From Mytilus galloprovincialis (taxonomy: Eukaryota; Mollusca; Bivalvia; Mytilida; Mytilidae), in contig NC_134839.1 of the NCBI RefSeq assembly GCF_965363235.1, forward strand, positions 59,487,560-59,551,559: a DNA stretch of 64,000 bases, given 5' to 3'. Shown here piece after piece: positions 14,712-33,000 of this stretch (position 1 is the stretch's first letter; each line of letters begins with the position of its first letter). The notes under the pieces were generated by a model. It saw nothing but the letters and a program-made list of their open reading frames with translations. It did not search any database and had not been told where the DNA came from. Made by a program: the position numbers and the translations under genes.

Positions 14712-15035
14712 GCTATAATGGTTTACTTTTTTAAATTGTTATTTGGATGAAGAGTTGTCTCAAATAGTTTTATAAATTGACCATAAACCCACTTATTCAT
14801 GGTATGGTATCAATATTTCTGACCTGACACTACGTACTTTTTATTGTTTAATTCTTAAAGAACCCGAAACATTGCATATTAAATTCTAAAGAATTAAGCA
14901 ATAAAAAGTACGTAGTGTCAGGTCAGAAATATTGATACCATACCATGAATAAGTGGGTTCATGGTTAATTTATAAAACTATTTGGATAGAGAGTTGTCTC
15001 ATTGGCACTCACACCACATCTTCCTATTTCCATTA
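14712..15035 (+). repeat. Mussel 'gagttgtctcattggcact' repeat split by a 220-bp palindrome
   Basis: The repeat starts 'ctataatggtttactttt' and ends 'caccacatcttcctatttcc'. It is interrupted at 14763-14982 by an inverted repeat whose arms start AATAGTTTTATAAATT and end AATTTATAAAACTATT. The host sequence 'atttggatgaagagttgtct' appears on both sides of the palindrome (14741 and 14980). This insert is absent from the right foldback arm. Confidence 0.8.
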
Positions 15036-15620
15036 GAATTAAAGCTCTAGTTAGCATAGAGTTTCGAGTTGAACTTCGAGTTTGAGTCACATTTAGAGGC
15101 AGAGTTCTAGTTACAAGTTTGAATTTGAGTCACTTCTTGAGGTAGAGTTTGAGAAAGATTCGAATTTAAGTCTCGTTTAGATTAATTGAGATTTCGAGTT
15201 GAAATTCGAGCTATTTTATATGTCTTTTGGAGTTCGTAATTAAATTTTCTATCGCGGAACAAGGGCTTTTGCTCGGGCTTCCGATAAGAGGGCTCCGGGA
15301 TATGCGTACTAAATTAACAATGTTGCAGTAAACAAAACCTAACATATGAGTTGAAATAATTAAAAGTTAAATGTGGTGTGATTGCCAATGAGACAACTAT
15401 TCACCAGAGTTTAAATGTAGTGGGTGTCAGAAATCATAAATTGGCAACAGTACAGCCTTCAAGACTCCGTATACTCAGCTACAGAAAAAGATCTGCGCAT
15501 GTGTGGAGAAAATATGTCGACCAATTTTTTATCCCGAAAAAAAGACAATAACTAGAAGTTAACAATTATTGTGAAAGTTATTTTATGTGGAATTTATTAC
15601 CCAAATAGTGTATCAACTAC

Positions 15621-16874
15621 ATGAATCGTAAAAAGGATGGCAAGAAAGGTCAGAAAAGAAGGAATTAAAAACCTGAAAACGATAGCTCGGAGAAACCAAG
15701 TAAGAAACAACAAAGTAGTACTCACGATTCAAAACATGAGAATGTAAACAAACCGAAAAAAAGTTTAAAAAATAAAACTGTCGATAAATTACAGACTGTA
15801 AATATGTCAACGTACATACCAAATATTGATTCCCCTATCCTACCTGGAAGATCCAACATACCACAGTATACAACACAACAAATGTCAACTCCAAACTTAA
15901 CTTCACCAACGGGCTACTATCCTTATGGACCCCAACCTATTCCAAATATTCAACCAGTTATGCATTCAACAATGAATATGGGACACGACACAAACATCAA
16001 AATTGACAATCTTGACAGAAAGGTGGAAGAAATGTTGACAAAATTATCTATGCTTGACTCTTTTGGTGAAAAAATTGACAAATTTGAAAGAAGTATGCAA
16101 ACATTTTCAAGCAATGTAGGAAAAATTACAGATAGAGTAGGAGATATAGAAAAAAGTTTGGACTTTATAAACTCTCAGTTTGAAGGAAACAGAAGTGATC
16201 TATCCGAAATGAAATCTGAAGTTACTGCTATTAGATCTGAAAACAATAAAGTGGCCGAAAACATGCAAAAGGTACAGAATAATCTTGATGAACTACAAGA
16301 AAAACACCTAGATCTTCAGATTCGTTCGATGCGTGAAAACCTAGTCTTCACAGGAATTCCTATGACGACAGAAAATGAAGAAAGTGATACAACGGAAGGA
16401 ATTTTGAAATTATTCATGAAAGAAGACATGAAAATGGAAACAGAGATTGATTTCCACAGAGCTCACCGATTCGGACAGCTGAATGAGAGAAAAAATCGAG
16501 ACGGAACAACATTTAAAACTAAACCAATTGTATGCAGATTCAAGAGCTTTAAGGACAGAGAAATAGTACGGAAGTCTGCAACTAATCTTAAGGGGACGAC
16601 CTTTGGTGTTTCAGAACAATTCCCTAAAGAAATCAACGAAAGAAGAAAATTATTGTGGCCTTATTATAAGGAAGCTCGAAAACAAAACAAAAAAGCTCTT
16701 ATCAAACGAGACAGACTTTTTATCGATGGAAAAGAAATTAAGCCTCTACAATCAGATATAGCCGAAAATACTACACGACGTGAATTTCAATCACAAGGAG
16801 CACGTCCAAAAACTAGACGACGAAACAGACGAGATGATATCACTTCGGATGAAACCGCAAGTAACGGAAGATAG
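15621..16874 (+). pseudogene. LINE ORF1 (L1/Tx1-type RNA-binding protein); open from 15804, upstream start cut by an in-frame stop
   Basis: From ATG 15804 the frame is open for 356 codons. Residues about 65-170 are a heptad-rich coiled coil, followed at about 172 by RSMRENLVFTGIP and later DFHRAHRFG and KPIVCRFKSFKDRE, the pattern of the RRM plus C-terminal domain of L1-type ORF1 proteins ('transposase 22' family). Such proteins trimerise and coat the element's RNA. In the same frame, an earlier ATG at 15621 starts a Lys/Arg-rich leader broken by a single TAA at 15666-15668; the frame then stays open into the main ORF. I infer that the original start was 15621 and that the TAA is a nonsense mutation, although a true start at 15804 is possible. 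ORF2 follows directly after the TAG in the same frame. Confidence 0.8.
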
Positions 16875-19800
16875 GTGAACCATGGAGGGCAAACAAACTC
16901 AGTGAACAGTGACAATTCTAACGATTCGGATGACTTTCACGGATCAACTGGCCATACTGTGAACAAGAACTCAGATATTAAAATATTATCTCTAAATGTA
17001 TGCGGTGTCAAGCATCGATTATTTTATCCCGAATTCCAATGTTTAATAAATAAATTTGATATTGTTTGTTTTCAAGAAACAAAGCTTGATGATATAGACA
17101 TTATTGATTGTGAAAACTTTATTTTCAAGTATAAAAATAGAAAGAAAATTTCAAACTACAAATCTGGTGGTATTGCTATAGGTTACAAAAAATATTTAGA
17201 ACATTACATTACTGTAATAGAATCAGAATGCCCTTTTGTTTTCTGGTTTTCTGTTAAAAAAGAAATTTTTGATTTCCAAGAAAATGTTATATTTGGTATA
17301 ACTTATATACCCCCAGAAAATACAAATTATGCGTCAGATGAAGCCTTTTCGGAAATTGAATTTGAGTTTCAAAATTTTAGTAAGAATAATGATTACATGT
17401 GTTTACTTGGCGATTTCAATAGTCGAACTGCAACACTAAAAGATTTCCATGAAATAGAAGATACTGATGATACTCAATTTAATGATATATCAGATATAAA
17501 TGTATTTTCAGATATATGTATTCTTGATGATATGAACATATCAAGGTGTAGAAAAAATCCAGACACTATTGTAAATAAGTATGGTAGAAAACTTATTGAA
17601 TTTTGTAAAAATAATAATATGTTTATCCTAAATGGTAGATTTGGGAAAGATAGTATTGGTAGAATGACTTGTAAAAATAAAAGTGTAGTTGATTATATAA
17701 TATGTACATGTAATGTTCTCGAGAATATACTCGACTTTGAAGTACAAGAGTTTTGTAGACTTTTTTCAGATGTTCACTCACCTCTCTCACTTACTTTGAG
17801 CTGTAAAAATAAGAAGCATTCAGATTTGGAGACAAATAATTTTACACCGAAAATTGGTAAATGGAAATGTGAAAAAACTTTGGATTTTAGAGATAATTTA
17901 GATGGAGAAATGATTGAGAAATTATTTTTTAAGATACAAACTTTACATAATGCAAAAGAAAATGCACAAAAACCGGAAGTAGATTTTTGTAATATTTTAT
18001 TGAAATCGGCAGAAGCTACTTTCGGTCTCACAAGTAACAAAGCACACAGACATTCAAAAAAGCAATGGTTTGATCTGAAATGTTTGAAAGCAAAAAAAGA
18101 ATTCAGAAAATCAAAAAGACTGTGTAAAAAATATGGTTCAAATATATTTAAAGAAAGATTAAGGGTGAGTGAACTTTCCTATAAGAAAACTATGGAAAAT
18201 GCTATTGTGAGATTTAATACAGATTTTCGAAACAAAATGAAAAACATGAGAACAAAAAATCCCAAAGAATTTTGGAAACTTTTTCATGGTAATAGGCAAA
18301 GAGATATTTCTAAAATTCCTTTGCAAACTTTGGTTGACTTTTTTAAAGATTTAAATACAAACAAAGATCATTCAGACGATTTTGTTATTACAAACGAGAT
18401 AAATTCAGACGAAGTAAATGAGATGATTAACAAGGAAATAACTGCAGATGAAATAAGAAAAGCAGTAAAAAAAGCGAAAAATAACAAGTCTCCAGGTGAT
18501 GATTTAATTATTAATGAATACATTTCATCTTCATTGGATTCTATGATTGACATTTATGTTTATTTATTCAATTTGATTTTTGATACAGGTATTGTACCAG
18601 AGTCCTGGCTTTTTGGTAATGTTTTACCTATTTTTAAGAATAAAGGGAGTAAAATGGAACCAAAAAATTATAGACCTATAACACTGTTATCTTGCATTGG
18701 GAAGATATTCACATCTATTTTGAATGATAGATTAAGTACATTTTTCGATCATTATAAGATTTTACATGAGAATCAAGCTGGATTCAGATCCGGATATTCT
18801 ACTAACGACCATATTTTTTCTCTGTATGTATTGTTTCAATTATTGTTTTTAAAAAGAAAGAAACTTTACTGTGCGTTTGTAGATTTTGAAAAAGCCTTTG
18901 ATTTTGTACATAGAAACTCTTTATTTTTCAAACTTCTACAGAACCACATAAATGGTAAATTTTTTAGAATTGTACAAAATATGTATCAAGATACGAAATC
19001 CTGTATAGTACATAATAATGAAAAGTCTGACTTCTTTGCTTGTGATATAGGAGTTAGACAAGGGGAGAATCTCTCTCCTATATTGTTTTCTTTATATCTA
19101 AATGACTTGCAAGACTTTCTAGAAACTACAAATGTTAAAGGTTTAGAAACTATTAGTAAAGATATAGAAAATGAACTGATGGTTTATTTCAAAATGTTTA
19201 TTTTACTGTATGCTGACGATACAATTTTGATGTCAGAATCAAATGAAGACTTACAATTGATGCTTAATGAATTTTGTGATTATTGTAAACGATGGAAACT
19301 GAAAGTAAATGTGCAGAAAACAAAAGTTATGGTATTCTCAAAAGGTCGACTGTCAAAGAATTTAAAATTTTATATTGAAGATTATGAAATCGAGATAGTA
19401 AATGAATATAAATATCTTGGAATTATTTTTTCAAAAAGTGGCTCTTTTTTGAAGACAAGAAAATATTTATATGGAAAAGCTACAAAAGCAATGTATGGAT
19501 TGTTACAAAAATGTAGAAAGAACAATTTGTCTATTGAATGTCAATTAGATATGTTTGACAAAACTATTTTACCGATACTTTTGTATGGATGTGAAATTTG
19601 GGGGTTTGGAAATTTAGAGTTACTCGAAAAAGTACATTTGCGATTTTGCAAACTTATATTACATTTGAAACAATCTACTCCAAATTTTATGATTTACGGA
19701 GAGCTGGGAAGATATCCCATTTCATTTCACGCAAGAGTTCGTATGGTAAAGTTTTGGTGTCGTCTTTTACATGGAGAAGAATGTAAAGTCTCTTCACTTT

Positions 19801-20396
19801 TATATAAGCTATTATTCGTCTATTCTAATAATTATGGTTTGGAGAGTAAATGGTTATGTTTTATAAAAAGCACACTAGACAATTGTGGAATGTCAAATAT
19901 TTGGAATCAGCAGGGTACTTTTTCTGCTCTGTGGATTTCTAAATGTGTAGAACAAAAACTGAAGGACCAATTTATACAGGAATGGTATGAAAATATGAAT
20001 TCTACCTCAAAAGGTATATGTTATAGAATATTTAAAAAAGAATTTAAATTTGAAAAATATCTATCTATTTTACCATTGAATTGTATGTATATGTTTTGTA
20101 AATTTAGATGTGGTAGCCATCGTCTACCAGTTGAGACAGGGAGATGGCACAATCTGTCGAGAAATCATAGATTGTGTCGTATCTGTGGCTCGGCTGAAAT
20201 TGGTGACGAGTATCATTATATTTTGTCTTGTAAATCTTTCGTTAATGAAAGACAAAAATATTTACCGAAATTTTGTTGGAAAAATCCAAACACCTTGAAA
20301 TTATGTAATCTGTTTTCCTCAAATAATATTACTGTTTTAGAAAAATTATGTCGATATATTAAAGCTGTTAATGTGAAAGTCTCTCCTCCTGGTTAA
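16875..20396 (+). CDS. LINE ORF2: endonuclease-reverse transcriptase (intact frame, no N-terminal ATG)
   Basis: The frame is open for 1,173 codons. Order: Ser/Asn-rich leader (1-33); APE-type endonuclease with LSLNVCG (~38-44), FQETKL, GDFN (~178-182) and SDVHSP (~297); reverse transcriptase with NYRPITLLS (~598), AGFRSGYSTND, FVDFEKAFD, GVRQGENLSPILF and YADD (~779); then a C-terminal Cys-rich motif CRICG...HYILSC (~1101-1119). It copies the element's RNA at nicked target DNA. The frame begins right after ORF1's TAG, in register; the first codon is GTG and the first in-frame ATG lies just before GDFN, inside the endonuclease. Translation would need readthrough or non-AUG reinitiation. No internal stop or frameshift is present, so the copy is young or selected. 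I do not assign the clade. Confidence 0.9.
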   Translation: MNHGGQTNSVNSDNSNDSDDFHGSTGHTVNKNSDIKILSLNVCGVKHRLFYPEFQCLINKFDIVCFQETKLDDIDIIDCENFIFKYKNRKKISNYKSGGIAIGYKKYLEHYITVIESECPFVFWFSVKKEIFDFQENVIFGITYIPPENTNYASDEAFSEIEFEFQNFSKNNDYMCLLGDFNSRTATLKDFHEIEDTDDTQFNDISDINVFSDICILDDMNISRCRKNPDTIVNKYGRKLIEFCKNNNMFILNGRFGKDSIGRMTCKNKSVVDYIICTCNVLENILDFEVQEFCRLFSDVHSPLSLTLSCKNKKHSDLETNNFTPKIGKWKCEKTLDFRDNLDGEMIEKLFFKIQTLHNAKENAQKPEVDFCNILLKSAEATFGLTSNKAHRHSKKQWFDLKCLKAKKEFRKSKRLCKKYGSNIFKERLRVSELSYKKTMENAIVRFNTDFRNKMKNMRTKNPKEFWKLFHGNRQRDISKIPLQTLVDFFKDLNTNKDHSDDFVITNEINSDEVNEMINKEITADEIRKAVKKAKNNKSPGDDLIINEYISSSLDSMIDIYVYLFNLIFDTGIVPESWLFGNVLPIFKNKGSKMEPKNYRPITLLSCIGKIFTSILNDRLSTFFDHYKILHENQAGFRSGYSTNDHIFSLYVLFQLLFLKRKKLYCAFVDFEKAFDFVHRNSLFFKLLQNHINGKFFRIVQNMYQDTKSCIVHNNEKSDFFACDIGVRQGENLSPILFSLYLNDLQDFLETTNVKGLETISKDIENELMVYFKMFILLYADDTILMSESNEDLQLMLNEFCDYCKRWKLKVNVQKTKVMVFSKGRLSKNLKFYIEDYEIEIVNEYKYLGIIFSKSGSFLKTRKYLYGKATKAMYGLLQKCRKNNLSIECQLDMFDKTILPILLYGCEIWGFGNLELLEKVHLRFCKLILHLKQSTPNFMIYGELGRYPISFHARVRMVKFWCRLLHGEECKVSSLLYKLLFVYSNNYGLESKWLCFIKSTLDNCGMSNIWNQQGTFSALWISKCVEQKLKDQFIQEWYENMNSTSKGICYRIFKKEFKFEKYLSILPLNCMYMFCKFRCGSHRLPVETGRWHNLSRNHRLCRICGSAEIGDEYHYILSCKSFVNERQKYLPKFCWKNPNTLKLCNLFSSNNITVLEKLCRYIKAVNVKVSPPG

Positions 20397-20489
20397 CGTA
20401 TATCATTTTCCTCATACATGCACTGTATATTATATTGTTGTATATACTTATTGTCTCTATAACTATGTCAGTAGTTGATGAGAATAAAA

Positions 20490-22261
20490 TTCATTCAGTT
20501 ACAAAAGGCCAATATGCACCATATGAAAAAAAAGATCAAACGAAAAAACTAACGGTCTATTTTACAAAAAAAAAATATGCACATATGTGTACAACGATAA
20601 CAATTGAACTCCATGCTCCTGACTTGGGGCAGGTACATAAAGAAAGTGCACGGGGCGGAGTTAAACATGTATGTGAGCAAACATCGGACTGTAACAGAGG
20701 TGTAACAGCACAACACGAGAAAAAATGTAAACTAGACAAAGTGATGCCCCGCACTCCACTCATTTAACCGCTTATACCCCAAAAAGGACAAAATTCAAAT
20801 TTTCTCCCAACAGAGGAAAATTATAAAAAGAAAAAACCCTGACCACATGCACACCTTCGATACATGTACAAACAGCTAGCAGAGTGATAAATTCCTAGCA
20901 TTCAAACTGTAGGAGGAGTTATCTGGAAACGCCCTACTTATGCAAGCACCTTTCCCAAAAATGACAAAGTTCAAATTTCTCCCAAAAGAGCACATATTAA
21001 TAAAATTAAACCCTGACCACATGCAGCACACTTTCAATATATGTACAAACAGACAGTAAAGAGAAAACTTCTTAGGATTCAAACTGTTGGAGGAGTTATG
21101 CGGGATAACTATATACCCCTAATGGGACGGAAAGACCGACGGACGGGCAGAGATTAAACACTATGCCCAACTTTCAGTTGCGGTAAAGTTGTGGTGGCTT
21201 AAAAAACAGTTTCAATTGGCTGACTCAATAGATCAGTATGACTGGGTAATTTAAATCCATCCGGGTGATCTTGGGTTCCACAGAAAGGTAAGGAGATTCT
21301 GCTCAACGTGTGGCACCCGTCGTGTTATTCGCGAAATTACAAACCGAGTGATTTGGTTTTATTTGGAAGTTCACATTCGAGTAAAAGATGAAGGTATTAT
21401 GGTTACGTCAACTGGAACATGTTCGTCGTCACATGTGAAACAGTTATTCCAGGTAAATCAGAGAACTCAATTGATTAAAAGTAAAAGATTAATATTCGTG
21501 TATATGTTCAAATGATCATTAACGCTAAACAAAAATCGGAGAATTCTTATTTTATAGTATTGATGCTTTGTCGCTTAATCCGAGCCCCTCCCCCGATTTT
21601 CTTGTGCCCTAAGTGTAAGTTGATTTGAAGTATTAGTCTTTTGATTTGCGTCGAGCCTGCGACATCAATGTAGCGGCAGTGAGACACAACAACGTCGTCG
21701 AAAGTGTCGTCATTTTGCGACCTTTTATAGCTTACTATGGGGTATGAGTTTTGCTCATTGTTGAAAACCATACGGTTGTGTTTCAGTTAAATAAAACCGA
21801 GTTCAACTTTTTTGACAAGATAAATTTATTACCTCCATGAAGTGTAATACAGGAGTTTCCGTCAATATCAAGAAAAAGCATCTACAGAAAAACATTTTTT
21901 TATTTTTTTTTTTTGACCGATGAATGTACAGCCGATCAGCAGCAGCGATATCAGGCAAGACACAGCGTTCCGTGGACTTTTTTACAAATTTATTATAATA
22001 CTGCTTCTATTTGAGAACATCGGATCAAATAACAGGACCAAGAGGTTTGGGGATATTCCAATTATGTCCGAAATACTGTAAAATTTTTAGGATTTTATTT
22101 TTTTATTATTGTCTGCCGTTCCCCTTTTTCATATCAAATAACTCTCAACAACCACTCGAACTTTGATTGGAACTTTGGTGATACCCATCCAAAGCACTTT
22201 CAACAAACGACATATTGAAATCTGTTAACAAATAGATTTTTTTTCACATAGTGTATGGTGG
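20490..22261 (+). repeat. Mussel repeat block with a ~170-bp tandem duplication (20784-21110)
   Basis: 20500-20760 has the 'gctcctgacttggggcaggt' repeat. 20784-20950 and 20956-21110 are two copies of a unit with 'aaaccctgaccacatgca' and 'ggaggagttat'. 21280-21500 and 21550-21780 resemble other mussel dispersed repeats ('attcgcgaaattacaaaccg', 'gaccttttatagcttacta'). No gene is seen. Confidence 0.65.
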
Positions 22262-27071: not shown

Positions 27072-30000
27072 TCATTCTAAATAATCACCGAAAACTGGAC
27101 TTTTGTATCTAGATGATATGAATATATTGTGTAATGTTGCATAATTCGGCAATTCTTTTAAACCTAATATCTTATAAACATTTTTGCAATTTTTGTCAAA
27201 TGATTTAACGACTTTAACATTGATATATTTTCTCCATAAATTGGCTGTTAATGTTGAATTTCTTCTGACAGTGTCATAGTATCCATTACTGTAGCCTGCC
27301 TTTGTATGACTTCCTAGCCACGATTCAAAATGTGCTGGTTCAGTTAATCCCAAAAATCGAAAAAGACTCCTTGCTGCTTTTAATGGTTGTTCTGCCACTG
27401 TTTCGTACAATATTGTTTTTATTCTGTCGGGATAAAGTGCTTTTAACCTGAATCCAACTTTTAGGTCCGACTTTAAATTATCACAATTACTTCGTGTAAT
27501 CGCATCTAGGTCATTTTGATTCTTTAGGAAATATCCATTTTTCCTTGATTGATAAGAACCTCTAGGATCACGAATTAAATGTATAATCTTCAACTGTGGA
27601 AATTCTTCTATTAGCTTTTCTGCTACTTTCATATTCATTCTAATAGTTTTAATCATCCTTACGGATTTTCTACATTTATCCTGGAAATCTAAAAGACAAT
27701 TGTATTGTGTATTATAATGTCTGCAATGGTCAAACCGATGCATTGTGCTACTCTTGTTTGAGGAGCGGAAGTACGAAATTGGCACATGAAGTAAATCACA
27801 TTTATAAAATTTGGCTAAGTCATCTAAAATGCCATCGATATTCTCTCGCCTTCCCTTTTGTTTCCTGAAACACATAAAAAGCGGAATGTTTAATTAGAAC
27901 ATGACATTCATAGCAAGTTTACCTTAACTTGACATTTTGCTTTATAAACCATAGATACATTCAGAAAGTCAAACAACTGTTTACTGGTAACAACTATAAG
28001 TATGTGCAGGTTTGGACAAGTTTGATTAAAAAAATGTGTCACCTTGAAAAGCTAATAAGACAAAAATGCACGTGTTGTCAGGATAAGCATAATTATCACA
28101 ATCGTAACTCAAAACATAGAAAAACAGATAAAAAAACAACACACACACACTTAACACTTGTTTTATATAAATATATAATCGTTTGTTTTTCGACTTGTAA
28201 GATACACATGTACTAGTATTGATTAGGAAATATGGTTATTAAACATTATTACTATAGACAATTTGTAATTCAGACCTATTTAGACGTACTTCATGTAAAA
28301 ATGTCAATTTTAATGGAGTCAAAGTATGTTGCATGTTGAATAGTTCCTACGTCATTTGACTTATATAATTATAGAATAAACCATTATAATATTAAATACT
28401 TATGTTCAATCACATTGCTCTATTTGCAATACTATATCACAGAAGAAGTTGAATAAATTCGAACATAACAGTACTTTAGCTTTATATATTAGACTTAGAT
28501 CGACGCCCGTATCTCTAATAGTTTTTTTATATAGACGTCCAACCACGGGGGGGTAACTTCGATATTTTTTTGGTAGGGGTGTGCCATTTTTGCCTCAAAA
28601 AACGTACCCATTTTAATATTACATTCACTGAAATTCAGTACCTATAGTTATATAAATATTTAATAAAGAATGACCTATACTTATATACAATACACCTTAT
28701 CGCTATTCCCGGCTGACCCGTCCGCTTGAACTTTTGACGTCAACAACAATCACTTTTCCATTGTGGCGTCAGACATTTTGTTTTATGACGTCAAAATTTT
28801 ACGGGAACCTGTGTGATTTCCAGCAATGGCGGACAAATAGCGATAAGGTGTATATTTAAAATATGACCCATGCTCATAATTCATAAATATACTGGTCAGC
28901 TACCCTTAAGTTTTTATATATGAATTGACATTCTTAATAGCATATTTATATATGATATGTAGATCATACCCCAAATCAATATACAGTTATCAAACGTAAA
29001 TGCATTTTAATATAGGATGTCATTAAAAAGGAGGGTCATTTTTATATAAAATCTCGCAAAATTATGACCCATATTTTTGGCACATCCCCGTATACCCAAT
29101 AATAGGAAGTAACCCCCCCCCCCCCCCCGTGCGTCCAACGTTATTTTATGTTCTAAATTATTACTATAAGTCGAAGTAAATGTATGGTAGGGATTATCAT
29201 TTACAGGAGGACACTATATCATGTATATATAGCTATTCTGTTTATGAATTGCTCAAAAAACGAGAAACAAATGCTTTGAGTTCTAAAGAGATGTCTGGAG
29301 ACGCGACTGTTTTTTTTTTTCACTCCAGTTACTGGACGACACAATTAAGCGTAACTATTTGAATCGAAGTTGAAACATTTTTAGCGACATTACAGTTCGT
29401 CTCCCCTTTCAAAAAATTTAAATCACAAATATTCTCTTGACCAGAAGCTTTATTTTTCGAATGATGTATATTAAAATTAACAGTGAAATATTATATAATT
29501 ATAAATTTAATACAATAAATACCTGCATGTTCCGTTGATCGTATGACAAACTGAGTCCATTGTAAAATAATGCTGACCTTTCACATAAGGTTTTAATGGT
29601 TCATATATATAGAACATATCTGCTGCTTGCTGAATAAGGTCCGCAGTGAATGTTGATCCACTGCGCAAGTATGTTACTAATAAAACTAGAGTTTGATTGG
29701 AACTTTTCATTTTCTTTAGAATTGATGAAATGTTAGAAGAATGTTTTTGAAATTCATTTTCTTCTTTTAAAGTTCTCTCTTTCTCTGTATAATTATTGGT
29801 CAAATGTTGTCCAGGTCTGTAATTTGATGTGTTATCCAGTAAAGGAATTCTTTCTTTCTTTTTCTTTGACAACATAATGTCAATATTTGAATTCACAATA
29901 TCTTGAAAGTTAATAAAATTTCCATTTGAATTTCTATCTTTAGATGAAAAGTTTAACAGTTTTGATCTCTTTGATATGGATGAAGTTGTAGATTTCTCTA

Positions 30001-33000
30001 TTGTAGGCCCTGGATTTGTAGATTGACTGAACTTTTGTAAATTGTTTTCATTAAACGTTTCAACATCAACTGCTGAGTGAAGGCTTCTAGATTCAATGTC
30101 TTTTACGTCATATTTGATGTAACTTTCAATATGGCGATTCTGAAGATAACGCATTTGTTGAACTGAAAAAAAGGAGATAGTTAAATTAATTGCAGGATGC
30201 ATTACGTGTACTACTTGTATACTTTTGGCTAATGTTCGTTTTGATTTTAATTCATTTCAATGAGATAAAAGAGGGGTGAAAGATACCAGAGGGACAATCA
30301 AACTCATAGGTTGAAAATAAACTACTGTAACAACGCCATGGCTAAAAAATTAAAAGACAAACAGACAAATAATAGTACACAACACACAACATAGAAAACT
30401 AAAGATTAAGCAACACGAACCCCACCAAAAAAATGGTTTTAACATGTACTACTTAATAGAATAGAGAATTTTAGAAGGGAATAATCAAAGAGACAACAAC
30501 CCGACATAAAGAAAACAACTGTCCGAAGCCATCAATGACATCAATGGGTGATCAACCTAGCGAGAAAATACCTCACAAAAAGGCGGGCTTGAGAGCTGGC
30601 TCATTACCAATACTGTATACCTTCTCAGCTAAATGAACGCCAAAACAAACACTGAAACATGCAAATGAACCAAAATTTTAAAAAATTCCACAAGACTAAC
30701 ATGCTAAAGGTTTTTGACAAAGTTTTTGTTCATTTCACGTGTTTTTAAATCGTATACTTCGCTTAAATACGGCAAATTTCAACGCAAATCGACGTATACC
30801 TACAAATTAAAAATGATACTGCATATTCCGCTATTTACGTTTCTGATTTATGGGCTTTTATTCATTACAAAATTCGTAAGGGTTCCGCTGAACCCGGTGT
30901 CTTGCCTACTTTTGCTGTTAATCGCAGGCTAAACAAAATTGAGGGAAAAAATCAATGAAAATATTACTCTCGATACTATCTTTTGATTGTAAGAAACTTC
31001 TTATCTGTCCAAGTTTGGTAAAAATCCAGGATAGTTTTTTAATCTACTAAATGTTTTTAAAAAATTAACTGTAGACTGAATGTAATATTAACTGGAAGAA
31101 AAACTAAGGTCAATTATAAGTAAAATACGGATAAACAAGTACAAAATTTAAACAAAATTTTAAAAACTTTAACCACATAGTGAATATTTGTGGACGCCGT
31201 CGCCGACCACGATATGACAGTGAGGAGTTACGGAACTTTATTCTTTGAAAAAGCGACGGGCGCGTCGTGCGCTCATAGCGCAGCTTTTTTGTTGTTGTAA
31301 TTTTGCCTTTCTGATCATTTAAGGTGTTAAAGTTTCTTTATATATTATACTTATCTCAGATTATTAGTAAAAAAGACACAAACATGGGGAAACTTTGGAT
31401 ATTTATCTGATATTAAATCAAATATTGTATTGTCATATAAACTTTACAGTTTGTGACCAACATATATTAACACAATAAACATACATATTAAACATACACA
31501 ATAACAACAGCATCAAAATGTTTTAACAACAAATAGGTTGTTAAGAGTCCCCTGCCCTCAGTTCTAATGACTTTTTCAAGAAGGATCCTAACTTATTTGT
31601 TTGTAAAGGCGATGATGGATTTAGTAAATATTGAATTTTTTCTTCTTCATTTAAATTATTAAAGTTATTATTTTCAGTACATATGTGATGAAAAAATTAA
31701 TTTCTTAGAGTTTTATTATACTCACAATATAGTAAAAAATGTTTCTCATCCTCTAGTATTTTACATTTATGGCAAAATCGTTCTTCTCTTGGGATTTTAA
31801 AATATCTCCCCTTTTCAATCAAGAGGGAGTGATCACTTACTCTAAATTTAGTGATTAATCTCCTTATCTGAAAATTAGATGTATTTAGATAAGATTCTAG
31901 TTTGTAATCTTTTTTAAGTTTTTTATAAAGAAAAAATTTACTTTTATCATCAATGTTTTGAAATTTAGTTTGAATTAAATCTTCATATCTATTTTTCATT
32001 TTTAACTTTATATCGTTCTTTTATTTTATTTACATCTTTTGTGTCCTTACAAGTAGAAAGAATATTAAGGTCAACATTAGTCTCTTTAACAATATTTTTT
32101 GCATATGTATACCATGAGTAAGTTCCTGTCAAATCTAGAGACTGTGCTGGAGAAAAAGCTTCCTTTATCAATGGATTAATATTATTATTATATAGTCTAG
32201 CTAAATATAAAAGGGTTTGTGTTTTAATAAAACATTCTATAGGCAATCTCCCTAATTCAACTTTTGCTCCTAAATTGGATGCATTTTTTCTTATTCCTAG
32301 AGTAGATTTACAAAATTTAAGATGCATATTTTCAATGGGGGTTTTGTCTATAAAATCAAGTTGATTAATTTCTTTTCCTGAAGATAAGACTCTGTTTTGG
32401 CTCGATGAAAAGAAATATGTTACTTCTGAATTATAGGTCATAATTGGTTTTACTAAAGAATCAAAAAGATTATTTGCTACTTTTATAGGTAGATTATTCA
32501 ATGATTTAGTATAGGATTTTATTGCAAAAAATACTTTTTTTGCCTTTTTTGTCAACTCTAAAGTACTTTGTGATAAATTTCCATTACATTATTTTATCAA
32601 CATTCCCAAAAATGAATATTCTGTTACACTCTCTATGGCTTTATTCTCATAGTAAATATGTGATGTTTTACTATTATGTTTTGACTGACTAAAAATCATG
32701 GATTTAGTTTTGTTTGTATTCAAAGAGAGTTGCCATTTGTTACAATATAATGTAACATTATTTAAACTGTTTTGAAGACCCTCTTTTGATTCTGACAGGA
32801 TTAAAAGATCATCCGCAAAAAGGAGGCATCCCACCTTACTATTTTTATCCATTTATCTATAATAATATTCAAGATAATTAACAAAATCTGCAATATTTTC
32901 TTAAAATTACCAATTCAGGGGCAGCAACCCAACAACGGATTGTCTGGTTCGTCTGAAAATTTCAAGACAGATAAATTTTAACCTGATGAACATGGTTACC

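Follow-up and report, generated by a model that had tools for sequence, protein, structure and literature searches.

Organization of the LINE and of its sibling copies

The window, i.e., the whole stretch of DNA analyzed (64,000 nucleotides of the Mytilus galloprovincialis genome, contig NC_134839.1, positions 59487560–59551559), harbors a copy of an APE-type non-LTR retrotransposon (LINE), a single ORF of which carries both the endonuclease and the reverse transcriptase domain. Its features are the following:

15494–20497, forward strand: LINE copy; limits approximate, set where sibling copies stop aligning
15666–15668, forward strand: in-frame TAA of the window copy, without counterpart in siblings L024, L025, L026, and L032
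15804–16874, forward strand: ORF1 as first delimited by the sequence-only reading, 356 amino acids plus TAG (ORF reading)
16872–16874, forward strand: TAG between ORF1 and ORF2, in the same frame (ORF reading; conserved across families)
16875–16888, forward strand: conserved 3' element GTGAACCATGGAGG (family alignment on the stop and genome-wide enrichment)
16875–16982, forward strand: 36-codon linker between the stop and the endonuclease, free of in-frame AUGs and in-frame stops
16882–16905, forward strand: out-of-frame ATG mini-ORF of 7 codons, not conserved between copies
16983–20396, forward strand: ORF2 endonuclease and reverse transcriptase (PF03372, PF00078), the first 174 codons of the open frame lacking an AUG

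The ORF1 frame of this copy is open over 15669–16871 and that of ORF2 over 16875–20393 (1173 codons, with the stop at 20394–20396), both in the same register and separated only by the TAG, as the sequence-only reading had described. Its further statement that ORF2 has no in-frame ATG before about codon 175 also holds, the first methionine being codon 175 (..DYMCLLGDFN), inside the endonuclease and 3' of the LSLNVCG and FQETKL motifs. ORF2 matches PF03372 with 28 bits (cut-off 24.5) and PF00078 with 128 bits (cut-off 29.6). Among solved structures, the closest chains include L1 ORF2p; the reverse transcriptase scores 105–108 bits against the L1 ORF2p chains and 71–76 bits against those of R2. 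The tail of the element consists of ATTC or ATTT repeats and not of poly(A). Regarding ORF1, a Pfam search returned 19 matches, all of them below cut-off, and the weak matches to solved structures were mostly coiled-coil proteins. Structure prediction from ORF1 as a single sequence gave a helix at residues 61–182 and low confidence for the remainder, the coiled coil being the only confident part. Read by eye and without a supporting database match, ORF1 appears as a long coiled coil with some likeness to L1-type ORF1p.

Sibling copies are present elsewhere in the 1.38 Gb genome that was searched. The nearly full-length L024, L025, and L026 align with the window at 98.9–99.4% identity from 15479/15494 to ~20497–20501, and L027 is ~92% identical to the window LINE. 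The siblings end in GAATAAAATTCATT.. followed by a varying number of ATTC/ATTT repeats and by different flanks; there are, thus, multiple insertions with a common 3' end and a variable short tail, together with partial and rearranged copies. The TAG occurs at the same place and in the same local register in 10/10 aligned family junctions, and also in an eleventh, that of the decayed relative L034 (71–77% identity in the aligned pieces). Some siblings, for example L026, carry frame breaks or stops elsewhere. In L024, L025, L026, and L032 the ORF1 frame is open further 5' (..MNRKKDGKKGQKRRNSKPEN..), reaching an ATG equivalent to window position 15621; L027 is broken in this upstream region. The ORF1 start of the sequence-only reading needs a correction: 15804 is just the next ATG of the window copy, given its in-frame stop at 15666–15668 that these four siblings lack. 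The ATG at 16882 lies in a good context (ACCATGG), is out of frame and opens only 7 codons. It was considered as a reinitiation start and rejected, since it is missing in L026 and L027 and cannot be a general start.

Conservation of the stop and of the frame in diverged families

The same arrangement recurs well beyond the siblings, so that it is more than a chance configuration of one copy. Families L040, L041, and L042, with ~70% DNA identity to the window, already show it, and the N-terminal ~350 residues of the window ORF2 share 51% identity with those of L041 or L042. For a broader survey, two endonuclease-peptide searches with overlapping lists were used, in which 150 of 363 and 150 of 396 candidates were scored, and the upstream DNA of 52 loci from these lists was taken; long open frames were preferred and the junction was not a selection criterion, L073 and relatives of L075 having already shown up in motif-based results. 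The 5' sequence was extended for L111, L116, and L083, where no stop had yet been seen (for L111 also on account of an element-like start), and L084 and L099 were used as initially taken. An in-frame TAG was found at the ORF1/ORF2 border in 42/52 loci and TAA in two (L070 and L072, one family), while two frame-shifted copies (L065 and L066) keep both the TAG and the element described below. ORF1 of L066 ends at the TAG plus element. Of the remaining loci, two were read too short (L086 and L090; their siblings L064 and L074 have the TAG) and four have unrelated or decayed upstream DNA (L083, L084, L099, and L115). No sense codon was found at the border among the 52 loci. In three of the 42 TAG loci (L106, L112, and L116) ORF1 is unreadable, being too short or decayed, and the border therefore rests on the element.

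Families were defined as groups of junctions >75% identical over 60 nt, after removal of obvious siblings. This gave 34 families, of which the 52 loci contributed 29, the other five being the window, L041, L042, L057, and L060. L027, L040, L058, L059, L100, L108, and L109 were merged into families, and L055, L056, L072, L073, L076, L082, L086, L090–L095, L097, L105, L110, and L113 were recognized by eye as siblings and not entered. All families come from one genome. The stop is TAG in 33 of them and TAA in the L070/L072 family; from linker base composition TAG would be expected in ~22%, a naive figure, and one for families that are not independent. Several families have ORF2 frames of 1160–1250 codons. 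Five distant families were read 0.6–0.7 kb further upstream. In four of them an ORF1 lies in the frame of ORF2 and stays open for 241–267 codons until the TAG, with a common core (..RSMKNNL.F.GL....VHRF....RPIVARF..) that to our eye, with no database match, resembles L1-type ORF1p; in the fifth, L104, the last ~90 ORF1 codons are in the ORF2 frame and the upstream part is in another. A search of viral contigs did not find a relative.

The sequence-only reading had proposed aligning other copies, and named as unfavorable outcomes an ORF2 ATG, a different frame, or a sense codon in most of them. None of these holds for most copies: TAG and register are kept in 10/10 siblings and 42/52 relatives, and 27 of 32 linkers lack an in-frame methionine.

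A conserved 14-nt element downstream of the stop

Alignment of the families on the stop reveals a linear consensus at nt +4 to +17 (UAG G NNN R CC NN GGAGR). Over the 34 families, the counts are G 28/34 at +4, purine 27/34 at +8, C 23/34 at +9, C 25/34 at +10, G 29/34 at +13, G 28/34 at +14, A 34/34 at +15, G 26/34 at +16, and purine 33/34 at +17. In 32 families the information amounts to 1–1.8 bits at the main positions, falls to 0.33 at +18 and is near background thereafter. Weak residual information is seen in the same 32 families at +21 and +38. The invariant A at +15 occupies the wobble position of different codons, namely GGA (25), GAA (4), AGA (3), and ACA (2), and the constraint is therefore on the RNA and not only on the residues. 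The element scores 5–9 of 9 at the stop; across 3533 linker positions the mean is 2.3 and every score is below 8. Upstream of the stop, positions −8 and −6 are conspicuous when judged by linker composition; against the composition of ORF1 ends the values are p 0.001 for −6 and p 0.02 for −8, uncorrected and calculated, like the other p-values of the family comparisons, as if the families were independent, which they are not. Given this bias, part of the signal may lie upstream of the stop.

Genome-wide, the exact 18-mer TAGGNNNRCCNTGGAGRA occurs 27 times with TAG, against 7 for the reversed control. The corresponding numbers (reversed control in brackets) are 2 (4) for TGG, 12 (41) for TAA/TGA and 1 (9) for CAG. 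By comparison of coordinates by hand, 23/27 exact TAG matches lie on the same strand as a listed relative match, either inside it or up to ~1.5 kb upstream, and none of the TGG, TAA/TGA, or CAG matches is at the position of a relative among the matches listed. TCG replaced TAG in 1/22 one-mismatch matches, at none of the listed endonuclease matches. Stop identity and 3' context are thus conserved across diverged relatives, as expected for readthrough. The string TAGGTGAACC..GGA presumably resembles the 3' end of 18S rRNA, in the same sense, a likeness that may be due to chance.

Linkers between the stop and the endonuclease

The linker varies from ~12 to 99 codons across families and the ORF1 frame is kept throughout. 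In 32 families (L066 and L112 are omitted from this count, and each linker end was taken from an approximate endonuclease pattern or from the end of the stretch), the 1388 linker codons contain no stop in the ORF1 frame, as compared with 105 and 236 for the two other frames. This zero is due in part to the definition of the stop as the nearest one upstream of the endonuclease. Independent of that definition, a readable ORF1 terminates at this very stop in most families. An in-frame Met is absent from 27/32 linkers. ORF2 lies in the frame of ORF1 without a start codon of its own, an arrangement expected for readthrough. The linker peptide is weakly constrained within families (pN/pS 0.83; 12 sibling pairs, with 8 synonymous and 29 nonsynonymous changes), and selection on residues consequently does not show linker translation.

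Probable readthrough of the UAG and alternative explanations

One conserved UAG, a frame that persists despite differences in length, the lack of an AUG, and a fixed element are the predictions of programmed readthrough, and on this pattern of sequence conservation such readthrough, yielding a low level of an ORF1–ORF2 fusion with the UAG and the linear element at nt +4 to +17 as its signal, is probably the mechanism in use. Ribosomes would ordinarily terminate at the UAG and release ORF1p. A small fraction would instead decode the UAG as an amino acid, stay in frame through the variable linker and continue into the endonuclease and reverse transcriptase, giving small amounts of a fusion comparable to gammaretrovirus Gag–Pol. 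The signal would be the UAG followed by G NNN R CC NN GGAGR; nt +4 to +17 correspond approximately to the mRNA stretch in the ribosome entry channel when the UAG is in the A site. The architecture, the conservation of stop, frame, and element, and the absence of an AUG are observed directly; from them we infer readthrough itself, its level, and its stimulation by the element. One family with TAA speaks against readthrough. Stable downstream RNA structure is present at many readthrough sites, although not at all of them. Folding of 38 stretches of up to 75 nt 3' of the stop (60 shuffles each; L103 was missed, L104 was represented by 28 nt only, and L066 was placed at the wrong stop) gave z values from −1.1 to +1.5 and no consistent local fold, a further point against readthrough. 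A stem of GUGGAGG with a later CUUUCAC, noticed by eye in a few families, was discarded, its pairing not co-varying.

The sequence-only reading had left a choice among readthrough, AUG-independent reinitiation, and a fused ORF that mutated recently; the first is now favored and the last can be excluded. Reinitiation coupled to termination, in which the ribosome would stop at the UAG, be held there by the element and restart at a non-AUG codon in or just after the stop, in frame owing to the fixed position of this start relative to the stop, to make a separate ORF2p, seems unlikely, even though unusual initiation of ORF2 has precedents among LINEs, as discussed for the stop–start coupling of SART1 and for L1 (PMC5972666). 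The conserved element is located where a determinant of reinitiation could be, and a linker that is open yet hardly constrained is compatible with such a restart. However, a start-like codon is not fixed, the first codons being GTG, GAA, GAT, GAC, GGA, CAA, AAA, TAC, and others, and any stop would serve reinitiation, yet 33/34 families have TAG. Readthrough is favored over non-AUG initiation at the stop because the TAG is conserved and the 3' element is fixed.

Much less plausible is splicing, in which UAG/G would be a 3' splice site, GGAGR an exonic splicing enhancer, and an upstream AUG would be provided by the spliced RNA. UAG/G would suit an intron end, and downstream motifs rich in purines can act as exonic splicing enhancers, but a polypyrimidine tract was not found: pyrimidines make up 44% at −20 to −4 (T 17%) against 43% at −60 to −21, and the longest pyrimidine run within 25 nt is 1–5 in 33/34 families. 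The TAA of the L070/L072 family is a further point against this explanation. A-to-I editing that would recode the UAG as tryptophan, of the kind known from the amber/W site of hepatitis delta virus, is slightly more improbable still. UAG is a favorable triplet for the deaminase and the TAG is nearly fixed; nevertheless, no duplex around the stop was found in folds of up to 75 nt, and, even though new copies are made from LINE RNA, TGG stands at the junction in 0/22 one-mismatch matches, and the 2 exact TGG-motif matches fall at no endonuclease position among the matches listed. StopGo/2A expression was rejected, since none of the 34 families has NPGP in the readable sequence flanking the stop. 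Finally, that the window holds a dead copy or a fused ORF with a recent nonsense mutation has a negligible probability: the window ORF1 has one further stop that siblings lack, but the TAG is common to siblings (10/10 junctions) and to diverged families, including those with ORF2 51% identical over ~350 residues and several with ORF2 frames of 1160–1250 codons, which refutes a recent origin.

Comparison with known systems and biological significance

Readthrough of a LINE stop is an idea already in print for a ciliate element. For the non-LTR Group 3 of Paramecium tetraurelia, whose two ORFs share one frame as they do in the mussel LINE, readthrough of the ORF1 stop was suggested in one sentence, on the basis of consensus sequences (PMC5405496). 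These elements differ in belonging to a ciliate and to a separate clade, and the passage that concerns them does not describe a conserved stop context (PMC5405496). Another parallel is Moloney murine leukemia virus, where pol lies in the gag frame behind one UAG; the gammaretroviral site uses a 3' pseudoknot (PMC5009743), in contrast to the linear 14-nt element of the mussel LINE, around which local structure was not found. In L1, ORF2 is downstream of ORF1 in a bicistronic RNA and is translated by a route independent of an ORF2 AUG, as the mussel ORF2 would be, a route called unconventional or unknown in the passages of two reviews that deal with it (PMC5972666; PMC5009743). The L1 ORFs are separated by a 63-nt spacer (PMC5972666), unlike the single conserved UAG, continuous frame, and element of the mussel LINE. 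In SART1, expression of ORF2 is coupled to the ORF1 stop and has determinants 3' of it, a coupling that may also exist in the mussel LINE; the SART1 stop and start codons overlap and are followed by a structure, as summarized in the review (PMC5972666), whereas the mussel junction has no AUG and no structure was seen there. Finally, the Candida LTR element Tca2 has a stop between gag and pol with a purine-rich stretch directly after it, and differs from the mussel LINE in being an LTR element with a predicted pseudoknot (PMC7175516). Readthrough had been proposed for Tca2 from its similar layout, and a reporter test, as described in the part of the source dealing with it, did not find it (PMC7175516); caution is therefore advisable when readthrough is read from layout. 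In the open-access literature on LINE stop readthrough or ORF junctions and on mollusc or bivalve LINEs, neither such readthrough in an animal LINE, nor a UAG in this role, nor a conserved 3' element was found.

On balance, these sequence comparisons lean toward a large group of LINEs that has long used UAG readthrough in the style of Gag–Pol, with ORF2p made as a fusion and with a new, structure-free 14-nt signal in the entry channel. It has long been asked how LINEs produce their second protein when it lacks a normal start, and 34 diverged families of one genome point to a retrovirus-like readthrough as one answer for this group, with the signal narrowed to ~14 nt and testable by reporter. 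If this is true, ORF2p would be born fused to ORF1p, which bears on the stoichiometry of the two proteins and on RNP assembly, and the suggestion made for a ciliate group (PMC5405496) would become a general route with a defined signal.

Surroundings and 3' tail of the LINE

Three features outside the LINE were recorded in the window.

Features outside the LINE (window coordinates)
14761-14984: inverted repeat whose arms, each about 86 bases long with few mismatches, flank a short centre; it lies a short way upstream of the LINE
27072-27893, minus strand: open frame matching the sulfotransferase families PF13469 and PF00685 in a Pfam search
31989-32588, minus strand: fragment that by eye resembles the region following the RT in a different LINE

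The inverted repeat looks like a hairpin or a MITE-like element. The Pfam search returned no match for the minus-strand fragment at 31989-32588, nor for a minus-strand frame (29507-30256) near the sulfotransferase-like one. The LINE itself ends in a variable ATTC or ATTT repeat rather than in poly(A), both in the window (20470-20500) and at the 3' ends of three sibling copies (L024, L025, and L032).

Unusual copies and relatives

In a sibling copy that is 92% identical (L027), the endonuclease part is interrupted by a 266-base insertion (3690-3955 of L027), and within this insertion lies an inverted repeat whose arms measure about 35 bases. Several rearranged copies (L028-L031), with breakpoints in common, are clustered at G000:C2:94276000-94303000 and probably represent a local duplication. 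Among the endonuclease-peptide matches listed, one relative (G000:C8:93411331) stands out because the frame behind its TAG stays open for 2089 codons, far more than the usual 1180 or so; either a C-terminal extension or a nested insertion is possible.

The stop signal and a possible second ORF1 type

In one of the 22 one-mismatch motif matches (G000:C1:87620435-87620452), TCG replaces the TAG; the locus may be a copy that has decayed, or one in which the two ORFs are fused. The stretch TAGGTGAACC..GGA (window 16872-16890, and the relative L057) resembles the 3' end of 18S rRNA, read in the same orientation, a likeness that may be due to chance. In four families (L079, L104, L105, and L113), and perhaps a fifth (L111), the sequence before the TAG resembles by eye another ORF1 type (..DDLFKLG..VDYKKLGLTEL*). 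As judged by eye, these families retain the TAG and much of the element directly after it (consensus G NNN R CC NN GGAGR). Because families with this other-looking ORF1 type keep both, the stop signal may be older than an exchange of ORF1.
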